The notes under the pieces were generated by a model. It had not been told where the DNA came from and ran no database searches. It saw only the letters and a program-made list of their open reading frames with translations. A program made the position numbers and the translations under genes. From JBHIBR01 sp046759145 [NCBI: Nitrospinota bacterium] (lineage in GTDB: Bacteria; UBA8248), in contig JBHIBR010000043.1 of assembly GCA_046759145.1 (NCBI GenBank), positions 1 to 9,355 of the forward strand: a stretch of DNA of 9,355 bases. Reading direction: 5' to 3'. Positions 4,490 to 8,132 of this stretch are shown in pieces; the first letter of the stretch is position 1; each line of letters begins with the position of its first letter.

Positions 4490-5581
4490 TTAGCCGATGT
4501 GCTGGTAGAGGGTGCTCCGCTCGAGAGGGATGCGCCCCTCTGCCTCGATGGCGCCCCGCACCTGCTCCACCGTCAAGTACTGGCCGAACCTGGATCCCGA
4601 GCTGCGGGAGATGTTCTCTTCGATGAGGGTTCCCCCCAGGTCGTTGACGCCGCACTGGAGGGCCCGGCGGCTGGCCTCCAGGCCGATCTTGGGCCAGCTC
4701 ACCTGGTTGTTGGGGATGTGGGCGCCGAAGTAGAGGCGGCTCACCGCGTGGACGCGAAAGACGTAGCGGTTGTCCACCATCTCGGTGATGCCGAGCTCGC
4801 GCCCCAGGACGTTGTCGTAAGGCACGAAGGGGAGCGGGACGAACTCGGTGAAACCGCCCGTGTCCTTCTGGATGCTCCGGAGCACCTCCAGGTGGCGGCC
4901 CACCTGTTCGGGCGTCTCGATGTGGCCGATCATGATGGTGGAGGTCGAGGGCAGGCCCAGGCCGTGGGCGCAGCGGATGATCTCCTCCCAGCGGCCCGCC
5001 CGGATGCGCCGGGGGCTGATGATGTCCTTCACCTCATCGCAAAGGATCTCTGCCGCAGTCCCGGGGACGCTGCCGAGGCCGGCCTCCTTGAGGGTGAGGA
5101 TCACCTCCTCCAGGGGGAGGCGCGTCTTGCGCTGGAGGTGGTCGATCTCGGCGGGGGAGTAGGCGTGGATGTGGACGCCCGGGATCTTCTTGTGGATGAG
5201 CTCCAGGATCTTCGCGTAGTAGTCGAGGGAGAGGTTGGAGTTCAGCCCCCCCTGCATGCAGATCTCCGTGACGTCCCAGCTCCTGGCCTTCTCCAGCTTC
5301 TCTTCCAGCACGGAGAAGGGGTGGGTATAGGCCCCCTCATCCGCGGGCCGCCGCCAGAAGCCGCAGAACTTGCAGTCGGTGTAGCACACGTTGGTGAAGT
5401 TGAGGTTGGCGTTCACCACATAGCTCACCTTGTCTCCCACCAGCTCCTTGCGGAGTCGGTCGGCGGCGGCGAACAGCGCCTCCTCCTCGGGCCCTTCGGC
5501 CCGCAGGAGGCTCGCCGCATCGGAAGGGGTGAGTTCCTCTCCCGCTTCAAACTTCTCCAGGCACTCGAGCGCTGGGGTCAT
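4490..5581 (-). CDS. cofH: Fo synthase subunit 2, CofH (5-amino-6-(D-ribitylamino)uracil-tyrosine transferase)
   Basis: CofH is the radical SAM enzyme that couples a tyrosine-derived fragment to 5-amino-6-ribitylaminouracil, the first half of Fo synthesis. The 363-residue protein has the [4Fe-4S]/SAM motif CYTDCKFC at 66-73 (C66, C70, C73), preceded by VNANLNFTNV as in the CofH/MqnC/MqnE group. Further along are ICMQGGLN near 108-115, HIHAYSPAEI, VPGTAAEIL, and TIMIGHIETPEQ, all typical of this group. The position between cofG and other F420 genes separates it from the menaquinone enzymes MqnC and MqnE, which have similar motifs. The ATG has GAGGG 6 bases upstream, overlapping the cofG stop; the gap to cofG is 9 bases, so the two Fo synthase halves are probably co-translated. 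In actinobacteria this protein is the C-terminal half of FbiC. Confidence 0.95.
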   Translation of the reverse strand: MTPALECLEKFEAGEELTPSDAASLLRAEGPEEEALFAAADRLRKELVGDKVSYVVNANLNFTNVCYTDCKFCGFWRRPADEGAYTHPFSVLEEKLEKARSWDVTEICMQGGLNSNLSLDYYAKILELIHKKIPGVHIHAYSPAEIDHLQRKTRLPLEEVILTLKEAGLGSVPGTAAEILCDEVKDIISPRRIRAGRWEEIIRCAHGLGLPSTSTIMIGHIETPEQVGRHLEVLRSIQKDTGGFTEFVPLPFVPYDNVLGRELGITEMVDNRYVFRVHAVSRLYFGAHIPNNQVSWPKIGLEASRRALQCGVNDLGGTLIEENISRSSGSRFGQYLTVEQVRGAIEAEGRIPLERSTLYQHIG

Positions 5582-5590
5582 GGTTTTCCC

Positions 5591-6592
5591 TCAGGAGGCG
5601 TGGGCCGCGCAGAGGGCTTCCAGCACGGGCGCCACAGGCGGGGCGTACCAGCCCCGCTCGACGAACTCCTCGTAGATGGGCATCCGCAGCTTGAGCCGCA
5701 TCCCGTGGGGCCGGAGGGCGGCCTCCAGCGCCTCGGGCTTTGGCCAGGGGCGGTCGGGGTTGATGTGGTCTGGCTCGTGGGCGAGCCCCCCCACGTCGTC
5801 CGCTCCTGCCTCGAGCAGGGGGATGAGCTCGTCCACCAGGTTGGGAGGGATCTGAACGTGCACATCGGGCATGATGGCCCGGCAGGCGGGGATGAGCTCC
5901 AGAAGGGCTTCCAGGGGGGGCCGGGGCCAGCGCGCCATGGGGGTGTCGGGCTGCGGGTTCAGGGGCTGGAGGATCACCTCCTGGATGTGGCCGTAACGCG
6001 CGTGGACCTCGGCGATGGCCTCGAGCGCGCGCACTCGCTCCTCGGCGCTCTCCCCGATGCCGATGAGGATGCCCGTGGTGAAGGGGATGCGGAGCTCCCC
6101 CGCCCAGCGCAGCATGGCGAGGCGCTTGGCGGGGGCCTTGGTGGGGGCGAGCTGGTGGGCGATGCGCGCCGCGGCCGGGCTCACCGTCTCCAGCATGGCG
6201 CCCATGGAGGCGTTCACGGGCCCGAGGAGCTCCAGCCCCCCTTGGGTCAGGGTGCCGATGTTGGTGTGGGGGAGGAGGCCGAGGTCCAGCAGGCGCTGGC
6301 AGACCCGGGCGACGTAGGCGGCGTAGGAGGGGTATCCCCAGGAGCGGAGCACCCCCGCCAGGCGCGGGTTCAAGTCGATCCCCTCGCCCGTCATCACAAG
6401 GGCCTCGATGGCGCCATAGCCTTTGGCCTCGAGGGCCCTGCGCTCCACCTCCTCCAGGTCCAGTAGGAGCGGGAGATTCTGCCGAAAGCTGCAGTAACTG
6501 CAGCGGTTATAGCACCAGTTGGTGACCGGGAGGGTGAAGTTCCGAGAGTAGGTGATGGCGCGCAGGGTCGGACCTCCCGCTTGGGCTAACAC
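5591..6592 (-). CDS. cofG: 7,8-didemethyl-8-hydroxy-5-deazariboflavin (Fo) synthase subunit CofG
   Basis: CofG is the second radical SAM enzyme of Fo synthesis and closes the deazaflavin ring of the CofH product. The 333-residue protein opens with ITYSRNFTLPVTNWC, the typical CofG start, and holds the cluster motif CYNRCSYC at 27-34 (C27, C31, C34). LVMTGEGIDLNP, HTNIGTLT, the METVSPAA-type block (here LETVSPAAARIAH), TGILIGIGES, and a VQIPPNLV...GADDVGG segment follow in family order. The C-terminus after the YEEF region is ordinary. The start is a GTG with AAGGGA 9 bases upstream (6607-6602). It is the first gene of the F420 operon, behind a promoter-like sequence and a dyad. Length is close to stand-alone CofG proteins and to the N-terminal half of FbiC. 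Confidence 0.95.
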   Translation of the reverse strand: MLAQAGGPTLRAITYSRNFTLPVTNWCYNRCSYCSFRQNLPLLLDLEEVERRALEAKGYGAIEALVMTGEGIDLNPRLAGVLRSWGYPSYAAYVARVCQRLLDLGLLPHTNIGTLTQGGLELLGPVNASMGAMLETVSPAAARIAHQLAPTKAPAKRLAMLRWAGELRIPFTTGILIGIGESAEERVRALEAIAEVHARYGHIQEVILQPLNPQPDTPMARWPRPPLEALLELIPACRAIMPDVHVQIPPNLVDELIPLLEAGADDVGGLAHEPDHINPDRPWPKPEALEAALRPHGMRLKLRMPIYEEFVERGWYAPPVAPVLEALCAAHAS

Positions 6593-6621
6593 ACACAGGC
6601 ATCCCTTGGCTTGGCGGGGCG

Positions 6622-6639
6622 AAGGAGCGAACGCTCCTT
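6622..6639. promoter_or_regulatory. Perfect 8-2-8 dyad in the cofG leader (operator or 5'-UTR hairpin)
   Basis: AAGGAGCG at 6622-6629 and CGCTCCTT at 6632-6639 form a perfect inverted repeat separated by two bases. It lies between the predicted -10 element (6657-6652) and the cofG start, roughly +6 to +24 from the predicted start of transcription. That position fits a repressor operator. As RNA it would fold into a 7-bp stem with a GUUC loop close to the 5' end of the message, which could instead stabilise the transcript. The minus-strand read AAGGAGCG also contains a Shine-Dalgarno-like AAGGAG, but no start codon is suitably placed for it. No regulator gene is in the window. Confidence 0.5.
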
Positions 6640-6651
6640 ATCCCCATTTCG

Positions 6652-6680
6652 ATTCTACCGGCCGCCCCCTCCCCTGACAA
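6652..6680 (-). promoter_or_regulatory. Sigma70-type promoter of the F420 operon
   Basis: On the minus strand TTGTCA (6680-6675, 5 of 6 to TTGACA) is followed after exactly 17 bases (6674-6658) by TAGAAT (6657-6652, 5 of 6 to TATAAT). The spacing is optimal, and an AT-rich sequence this clean is rare in so GC-rich a region. Transcription would start near 6645, leaving a leader of about 50 bases that holds the 6622-6639 dyad and the cofG ribosome site. It is predicted to drive cofG through cofE. It was found by eye and was not scored against background. Confidence 0.65.
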
Positions 6681-6792
6681 GGAATTTGGGAGGCGTTCTA
6701 TTTTCCCCATCTCTGAGCGGACTACGGCGAGCCTTCGGCCCGAGCTCAGACCGAGGGCTCAGTCGAGCCGGACGGCGGCGTTCCGGCCCCCG
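6681..6792. other. Upstream intergenic segment without a recognised gene
   Basis: This stretch lies between the promoter and the palindrome cluster, inside the 376-base gap between the amidohydrolase and cofG. It has a short imperfect dyad, CTGAGC at 6713-6718 against GCTCAG at 6744-6749, with a second GCTCAG at 6757-6762. It may hold a regulator or terminator element for the amidohydrolase transcript, but there is no hairpin with a T-run on the minus strand. No open frame here looks coding. Confidence 0.3.
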
Positions 6793-6943
6793 GTAGCGCC
6801 GATGCCTCGGAACGCCGGCATCTTGCCGGCCTCCTGGCCGCGGTTGCCGCCAAGATGGCGGCGCTCCCAATGTTCGTAGCGCCGGCGTCTCGCCGGCTGT
6901 GGCGATGCCGCCGGAGCCGGACCGCCGGTGCGGCCGGCGCTAC
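6793..6943. repeat. Cluster of REP/BIME-like palindromic elements
   Basis: Four small hairpin units in alternating orientation share a 5-base head and a GC-rich palindrome. Unit A (+): GGAAC at 6809-6813 then GCCGGCA-TCT-TGCCGGC at 6814-6830. Unit B (-): palindrome 6846-6862, read on the minus strand GCCGCCA-TCT-TGGCGGC, with head GGAGC at 6867-6863. Unit C (+): GTAGC at 6876-6880 then GCCGGCG-TCT-CGCCGGC at 6881-6897. Unit D (-): head GTAGC at 6943-6939, stem of 9 bp with one bulged base at 6938-6916. A degenerate fifth head-plus-hairpin may lie at 6793-6810. C and D share a perfect 13-base inverted repeat (6874-6886 with 6933-6945). A GTAG or GGAG head before an imperfect palindrome is the hallmark of REP elements mobilised by RAYT (Y1) transposases. 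No RAYT gene is visible here. Confidence 0.65.
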
Positions 6944-6968
6944 GATGGTGTCAGCCTGGCGAAGGGTC

Positions 6969-8132
6969 TCAGTTCCCCGGCGCTCTCCCATCCCCCGGAC
7001 CCGGCACCCCGTAGAGCTCCGAGGCGTTTTTCCAAAAAACCCTCTCCGCCCCCTCCTCCGCCTGCGCCTCGGTGAGCTCCCCCCTCTCGACGTAGCTCCC
7101 GAGCAGGCGCTCGAAGCCCCGCCGCGCCCAGACGGCGCCCAGCCAGTGCATCTCGGGAAGGGTGTGGCCGTCCGAGCCGTAGAGCACTTTGCTGAAAGGC
7201 GCCAGGGCGAATAGCTCCTCCAGGACGCGCGGGAGGTGTCCCCCCAAGAGGGGCGTCGCCAGGGAGATGTCCACGAAGGCGTTCCCGTAGGTGGCCACGA
7301 GGAAGCCGGCCTCCCGCACGTGGGGGTAGCCCGCGTGGAGGAGGACGATCGGGAGCTCTCGCAACCCTTCCTCCTCGAAAATCGGCCGCAGGAGAGCGGG
7401 ATTCGCAAGCGGCAAGTGAATGTCGGCGTCCCCGAAGCCCGTGTGGAGTTGGAAGGGGAGAGTGAGCTCCCGGGCCGCGTGGAGGGCCTCCCAGAGGAGG
7501 AAGTCGAGGAGGTTCTTTTCGGCGATGCGGAGGCGCCCCGCCTGCCCTGCCCCCGCCCCCTTCCGCAGCGATTCATAAGCCCCGATGGCCTCAAGCCGCG
7601 TGGGCCGACCCACATCGAGGCCCGAGCGGTAGGCGATGATGGACTTGAGCGCCACCCCTCCCCGCGCTTTGTAGGCGGCAAGCCCATCCAGGAAGCGCGC
7701 CAGGAACCCTTCGAAAGCGGAACCCTCGGGCAGAAGATCCTCGGCCAAGCTCTCGATGCGGAGGGCGCCATAAGCGGGCCTCCCGAAGGCTTCGGGAAGT
7801 TCCCCGAGCCCCGGCGCATCGGGCGGAAAGCGGTGGTCGAAGAGGAGGGAGATGACCCCGGCCTTCTCGGCGAGGTCGCGGCAGCGCCCCGCAATGTCCC
7901 TCCCCTCCAGGGCGCCCGACACCTCCTCCAGCGTCGCGCCGCAGCCGTAGAGGCCCGCCAGGAGCGCGAGGCTCGCCTGCGCCGAGGGGGAGTGGGGGAG
8001 GTGCCGCCGCCGCTGCTCCTCACAGCGGCTCTCGCTCAGGATGGAGCGGAGCGCCTCCAAGGAAGGCGCCCTCCCTGCCAGGTCGGGCGCGTGGCAGTGG
8101 GCGTCGATGAGGGGGATGCGGGAGAGGTCCAC
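6969..8132 (-). CDS. Amidohydrolase, FluG N-terminal-domain type
   Basis: A 387-residue TIM-barrel metal hydrolase of the amidohydrolase 2 (PF04909-type) group. The metal-ligand signatures are present: DAHCH at 10-14 (H12, H14), a lysine in ALKSIIAYRSGL at 161-172, H230 in PFQLHTGFGDADIHL, H266 in VLLHAGYPHVREA, and D321 in YGSDGH. The HTGFGD, HAGYP and GSDGH set is characteristic of proteins related to the N-terminal half of fungal FluG, which is fused to a glutamine synthetase-like half; the upstream gene here is that second half. It probably acts on an amide, gamma-glutamyl or ring-carboxyl substrate, but none can be named. The GTG start is fixed by an in-frame stop at 8150-8148 and a GGAGG site about 8 bases upstream. 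The 90-base gap from the synthetase holds a small hairpin (8201-8215). No terminator with a T-run follows. Confidence 0.85.
   Translation of the reverse strand: MDLSRIPLIDAHCHAPDLAGRAPSLEALRSILSESRCEEQRRRHLPHSPSAQASLALLAGLYGCGATLEEVSGALEGRDIAGRCRDLAEKAGVISLLFDHRFPPDAPGLGELPEAFGRPAYGALRIESLAEDLLPEGSAFEGFLARFLDGLAAYKARGGVALKSIIAYRSGLDVGRPTRLEAIGAYESLRKGAGAGQAGRLRIAEKNLLDFLLWEALHAARELTLPFQLHTGFGDADIHLPLANPALLRPIFEEEGLRELPIVLLHAGYPHVREAGFLVATYGNAFVDISLATPLLGGHLPRVLEELFALAPFSKVLYGSDGHTLPEMHWLGAVWARRGFERLLGSYVERGELTEAQAEEGAERVFWKNASELYGVPGPGDGRAPGN

Follow-up and report, generated by a model that had tools for sequence, protein, structure and literature searches.

Positions 6793 to 6943 of the window (the whole stretch of 9,355 nucleotides analyzed here, from a Nitrospinota bacterium) very probably form a REP/BIME cluster of two heads-outward dimers and a decayed copy, whose units belong to a dispersed family of GTAG- or GGAG-headed hairpins and most likely owe their placement to a RAYT. 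An earlier note, made without database searches, had proposed the same identity, which was borne out by dispersed copies and by the dimer layout, both tested in other genomes.

Layout of the cluster between a putative cofG and an amidohydrolase gene

The spacer between the amidohydrolase gene and the radical SAM gene holds three full hairpin units (A, B, and C), one looser unit (D), and one decayed copy (Table 1). Read directly and by pattern, unit A is GGAAC-GCCGGCA-TCT-TGCCGGC, unit B, on the minus strand, is GGAGC-GCCGCCA-TCT-TGGCGGC, and unit C is GTAGC-GCCGGCG-TCT-CGCCGGC. Measured against one 22-mer, A, B, and C have 2, 3, and 0 mismatches, and the same pattern gave 0 matches in 200 dinucleotide shuffles of the window. 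Folded as single-stranded DNA, the three units take the same form, with an identical 7-bp stem, a 3-base TCT loop, and a 5-base head that stays unpaired, which upholds the 17-base stem-TCT-stem plan ascribed to them in the earlier note. D, with its 6-bp stem and different 5-base loop, falls outside the plan. The units have the build of a REP, namely, a palindrome of 20 to 40 bp that carries a conserved tetranucleotide, left unpaired, on one of its ends, from which A (GGAA) and B (GGAG) deviate: of the four heads that had been matched to the conserved tetranucleotide, only those of C and D are GTAG. Orientation alternates at short spacing (A +, B -, C +, D -), as in BIMEs and REP dimers, in agreement with the claim that B and D point opposite to A and C. 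A-B and C-D form heads-outward dimers, and the heads of B and C point inward toward each other with 8 bases between them.

TABLE 1 Features of the window and of RAYT frames at other loci (L numbers)
Feature	Positions	Strand	Basis and remarks
Radical SAM protein gene, putative cofG	5591..6592	-	PF04055; starts 200 bp beyond the cluster, heads the F420 run
Promoter-like site TTGTCA-17-TAGAAT before cofG	6652..6680	-	Consensus match only
Decayed or truncated unit copy, GTAGCGCCGATGCCTCG	6793..6809	+	Direct repeat with C, 82% over 17 bases; weak fold
REP unit A, head GGAAC, 7-bp stem, TCT loop	6809..6830	+	Sequence reading, pattern match, DNA fold
REP unit B, head GGAGC (extended TTGGGAGC), 7-bp stem, TCT loop	6846..6867	-	Reading, pattern match, DNA fold
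REP unit C, head GTAGC, exact family 22-mer	6876..6897	+	Reading, pattern match, DNA fold
REP-like unit D, head GTAGC, 6-bp stem, other 5-base loop	about 6920..6943	-	Reading, DNA fold
Amidohydrolase gene	6969..8132	-	PF04909, ORF; stop 25 bp from unit D
RAYT-in-methyltransferase frame	L236 1-3552	-	
RAYT-in-methyltransferase frame	L197 1-3528	-	
RAYT-in-methyltransferase frame	L271 1-3531	-	
RAYT-in-methyltransferase frame	L277 1-3549	-	
RAYT-in-methyltransferase frame	L280 799-3516	+	
RAYT-glycosylase frame	L171 785-2113	-	Profile match
RAYT-glycosylase frame	L205 967-2523	+	Profile match
RAYT-glycosylase frame	L203		By reading only
RAYT-glycosylase frame	L204		By reading only

The radical SAM protein is probably CofG, judging from its location beside CofH, CofD, CofC, and CofE. 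One promoter-like site was found in the cofG spacer, against a mean of 0.0 in shuffled sequences, and since it lies between the cluster and cofG, this gene need not rely on read-through. An effect of the cluster on the F420 genes, or their insulation by it, is at most compatible with the layout. None of the nine window proteins scanned gave a Y1 match. The spacer also holds two further palindromes, at 6616 to 6645 and 6729 to 6760 (a 14-bp inverted repeat before cofG and an overlapping palindrome). Among the proteins of 201 genomes drawn from the same phylum as G047, a Chloroflexales genome, none exceeds 51% identity to CofH (window positions 4490 to 5581), and a contig scan with CofH as the query confirmed no relative.

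A dispersed hairpin family with paired stem changes and mixed heads

Exact copies of the 22-mer GTAGCGCCGGCRTCTYGCCGGC occur in at least 120 stretches found by a genome-collection scan, with nine phyla among the record labels of the matches listed. The labels among these matches comprise Acidobacteria and relatives, Pseudomonadota (Gallionellaceae, Hydrogenophilales, and Caulobacteraceae), Hydrogenedentota, Sumerlaeota, Verrucomicrobia, Planctomycetota, Armatimonadetes, Actinomycetota, and one Chloroflexales isolate; since all labelled stretches except this isolate are MAGs, any single phylum label may be wrong. The 37 genomes scanned, which had been picked for carrying the 22-mer, hold between 2 and 213 unit copies each at up to 2 mismatches, with at least 10 copies in 32 of them, and the pattern read backward gave three matches in total over all 37. 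In genomes drawn from the whole phylum of a known carrier, copies with at most 1 mismatch were present in 9 of 99 (G009, Acidobacteriota by label), 10 of 199 (G028, Planctomycetota), and 1 of 100 (G026, Pseudomonadota); each count takes in the carrier itself, and the second also G029, another known carrier. The presence of the unit across phyla is patchy. Eighteen stretches of a viral collection (L121 to L138) also carry the exact 22-mer, and units can form tandem arrays, with six copies at a 36-bp period (L231, 822 to 1023) or eight copies at a period of 27 to 28 bp (L270, 1217 to 1431).

The earlier note had proposed that the stem covaries, a case that is thin when built from three window units alone but strong over 238 paired units in 138 loci. 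With GTAGC, seven bases, TCY, and seven bases as an anchor, these loci yielded 271 sites, 208 of them fully paired and the 238 paired at 5 or more of the 7 positions. Among the 238, 27 have C-G at stem pair 5, the same change as in unit B. Pair 7, counted in scan-pattern units, where both of its letters are free, is G-C in 91 units, A-T in 66, G-T in 2, and A-C in 3 (Fisher test, 5e-39, a value that overstates independence because the copies are related). Stem variants change in complementary pairs, as is characteristic of REPs. Adjacent units at most 150 bp apart (n = 84) mostly have their heads outward (70 pairs, against 9 tandem and 5 heads inward), and 61 of these 70 pairs join unlike partners, as in A-B.

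Both of these habits are likewise reported in the text of Di Nocera et al. (2013; PMC3733652) for the GTAG-tagged REP superfamily, for which that paper gives 24 consensus sequences and which, as described there, resembles our family in several other respects: a short palindrome with an unpaired GTAG end, a stem of 6 to 9 bp, a loop of 2 to 3 bases, a location near the 3' end of the upstream gene (our cluster lies close behind a stop codon, as uni-REPs do), and RAYT genes bordered by repeats. However, the GGAG heads, with which we class A and B, lie outside the degenerate forms given in the text of that paper (GYAG, GYRG, GTRG, GTMG, and GTGG). Group 3 REPtrons, such as Stenotrophomonas REPSm as characterized by Corneloup et al. 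(2021; PMC8266576), share the GTAG head, the 3-base loop, and a perfect stem, which is 8 bp in REPSm and of similar length here; the loop is GCT in REPSm, whereas it is TCT in the window's family. The four 17-base unit strings were not found in the running text, as distinct from figures and supplements, of the papers searched.

The GGAG head is not mere decay, as it is the main head in genomes G440 and G525 among the matches listed. Exact matches to GGARCGCCGSCRTCTYGSCGGC number 33 in G440 and 20 in G525, with none in 13 of the 21 genomes tested. Heads-outward dimers of the GGAG type were seen in 7 of 8 neighbourhoods from G525 and in both of those from G502, and a clear dimer in 0 of 6 from G440. 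The three flanks examined read CTGGGAGC, where unit B has TTGGGAGC. The RAYT frame of L280, in G525, has a GGAGC unit (3 mismatches) and a GGACC unit (4 mismatches) at its borders. A-B would then be a GGAG-type dimer lying side by side with a GTAG-type dimer, C-D, each represented by two units.

Association with one RAYT clade and origin of the cluster

Y1 genes (PF01797) were matched in 37 of 37 genomes, and one clade of them is tied to the unit. The RAYT gene of locus L169 has a unit on both sides, and we defined its clade as the genes that scored at least 85 bits with the L169 protein as the query. Under the rule that a unit has the head G[TG]A[GA]C, at most 4 mismatches, and a place within 150 bp of the gene, 23 of 38 clade RAYT genes have one, in comparison to 2 of the 98 remaining Y1 loci; with the limit set at 2 mismatches, the counts are 18 of 38 and 1 of 98. 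Since L169 had been chosen as the query for its bordering units, we also give the count without it, 22 of 37. Reversed-sequence controls gave 0 of 38 clade loci and 1 of 104 comparison loci, a group that includes six cofH loci (L264 to L269) left out of the 98. Repeat entries for the same place (ten loci) were left out of these counts, the 98 include L231, where a clade gene is cut short at a contig end, and for 23 loci without a tblastn match the gene position was set to 1501 to 1840 of the locus, which misplaces a few of them. The REPtron arrangement, in which the unit flanks a RAYT gene, occurs in other genomes, as the link to RAYTs drawn in the earlier note had implied. The outcomes named there as speaking against it did not appear in these genomes either, where copies are many and the head is largely conserved.

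In six of seven loci examined, the 5' unit is followed by a common second hairpin. Six clade proteins scored 69.6 to 82.7 bits with NF047646 (REP-associated tyrosine transposase), three of them above the cutoff of 80, and the sole PDB relative found is TnpArep 4er8. By description, the clade is close to TnpAREP subclass 2.7 or 2.4 of the Y1 family as outlined in the text of PMC6006769, with which it shares NHVH, WQ, and Y..NP motifs, a length of about 200 amino acids, a variable N terminus, long REPs, and a scatter over phyla; we offer this assignment as a lead only. The RAYT tree mixes phyla, placing Sumerlaeota beside Acidiferrales (91/78, below the tool's star) and Chloroflexales beside Hydrogenedentota (99/93). 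Genes flanked by units do not group as a single clade in it (5 changes, against a shuffled mean of 12.3, with 0 of 500 shuffles as low), so that we do not claim strict codescent; the unit-flanked group of 15 was set by eye before the 150-bp rule and includes L230, which fails that rule. Fragments L231, L198, L202, and L186 were left out of the tree, and L257 sits on a very long branch. No unit lies within 150 bp of 15 of the 38 clade genes, and several copy-rich genomes, among them G004, G011, and G021 with more than 100 copies each, gave only distant RAYT matches and no close clade gene, perhaps owing to incomplete bins and to contigs broken at repeats. Genome G477 has two RAYT paralogues, each with its own REP form at the borders: GTAG heads at L270 (1217 to 2207), and TGAG, TGAC, or AGAG heads with TTT or TTC loops at L276 (1295 to 2265).

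How the cluster arose can be weighed against these data. Weak inverted repeats are numerous in this GC-rich region, but the 200 shuffles without a match and a reversed-pattern control near zero led us to reject chance palindromes, whose probability is negligible. Host-built RNA hairpins, meaning a terminator or message-stabilizing 3' structure of the amidohydrolase transcript that was selected for folding and is not a mobile repeat, would agree with the position of the cluster just past the stop codon and with the message-strand fold of 6780 to 6968, which surpasses that of shuffles (z, -4.1; 1 of 200 as good). Yet the identical 22-mer recurs across many genomes and phyla, and both an intrinsic terminator (none found in 6560 to 7000) and a known structured RNA (no Rfam match up to an E value of 1 in 6500 to 7050, further spacer palindromes included) were rejected; we consider such an origin very unlikely. 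A transcript role could nonetheless be added on top of a REP origin, as the strength of the message-strand fold means that hairpins at the 3' end may act on the amidohydrolase message: dimers transcribed with this gene would form strong 3' hairpins, which, at a guess, may protect or end the message.

That the REP copies were placed long ago and are now decaying without effect is a real possibility, if somewhat short of probable, and differs from the REP/BIME reading in present activity only, not in origin. It would account for the unlike heads, the other loop of D, and the decayed copy at 6793, whereas the stems of A, B, and C are perfect and C matches the family exactly. Under the REP/BIME reading, the RAYT would be a Y1 HUH enzyme that recognizes a folded single strand through the hairpin and its 5' tetranucleotide, and the copies were most likely placed by its action on such strands. 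Other TnpAREP/REP pairs need the hairpin and GTAG in vitro, with the head guiding cleavage, according to PMC8266576; by analogy, the units of our family may be cleaved likewise, and a cognate RAYT presumably acts or acted in the window's host.

Head changes and RAYT frames within DNA-modifying enzyme genes

The cluster itself is ordinary: GTAG REPs and RAYTs are already in print, as are REPs within genes (in the text of PMC3733652), and the text of PMC6006769 attributes the patchy spread of RAYTs to horizontal transfer. Two features may be more uncommon: the changes of head while the stem stays nearly constant, over up to nine phyla, and the nesting of RAYTs in DNA-modifying enzymes. With a common stem and different heads beside different RAYTs in Acidobacteriota, Hydrogenedentota, Sumerlaeota, and others, the unit family amounts to a natural experiment on the joint evolution of a domesticated transposase and its hairpin. 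It is tempting, though rather doubtful, to see in it one REP/RAYT lineage in which a 22-base hairpin stayed near unchanged over up to nine phyla while the enzyme diverged to roughly 40 to 57% identity, in which chiefly the head changed (GTAG, GGAG, and TGAG/TGAC beside the second RAYT of G477), and in which the RAYT, repeatedly in frame in DNA methyltransferase and uracil-DNA glycosylase genes, may be an internal domain.

RAYT-clade frames lie in frame within large DNA methyltransferase-type ORFs at five loci. We found no published account of RAYT frames inside restriction or repair genes, judging from titles and the beginnings of abstracts; unexpectedly long proteins, taken as fusions or annotation errors, were discarded in the survey of PMC6006769. 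In-frame RAYT insertions in DNA-modifying enzymes raise the testable question of how such transposases are expressed and kept. The methyltransferases concerned are of the Eco57I type, of Type ISP, or DUF1156 proteins with a D12 methyltransferase match, and REP-like peptide repeats border the RAYT part of these frames. In four Pseudomonadota genomes, the RAYT shares its reading frame with a uracil-DNA glycosylase family 4 domain at the C terminus.
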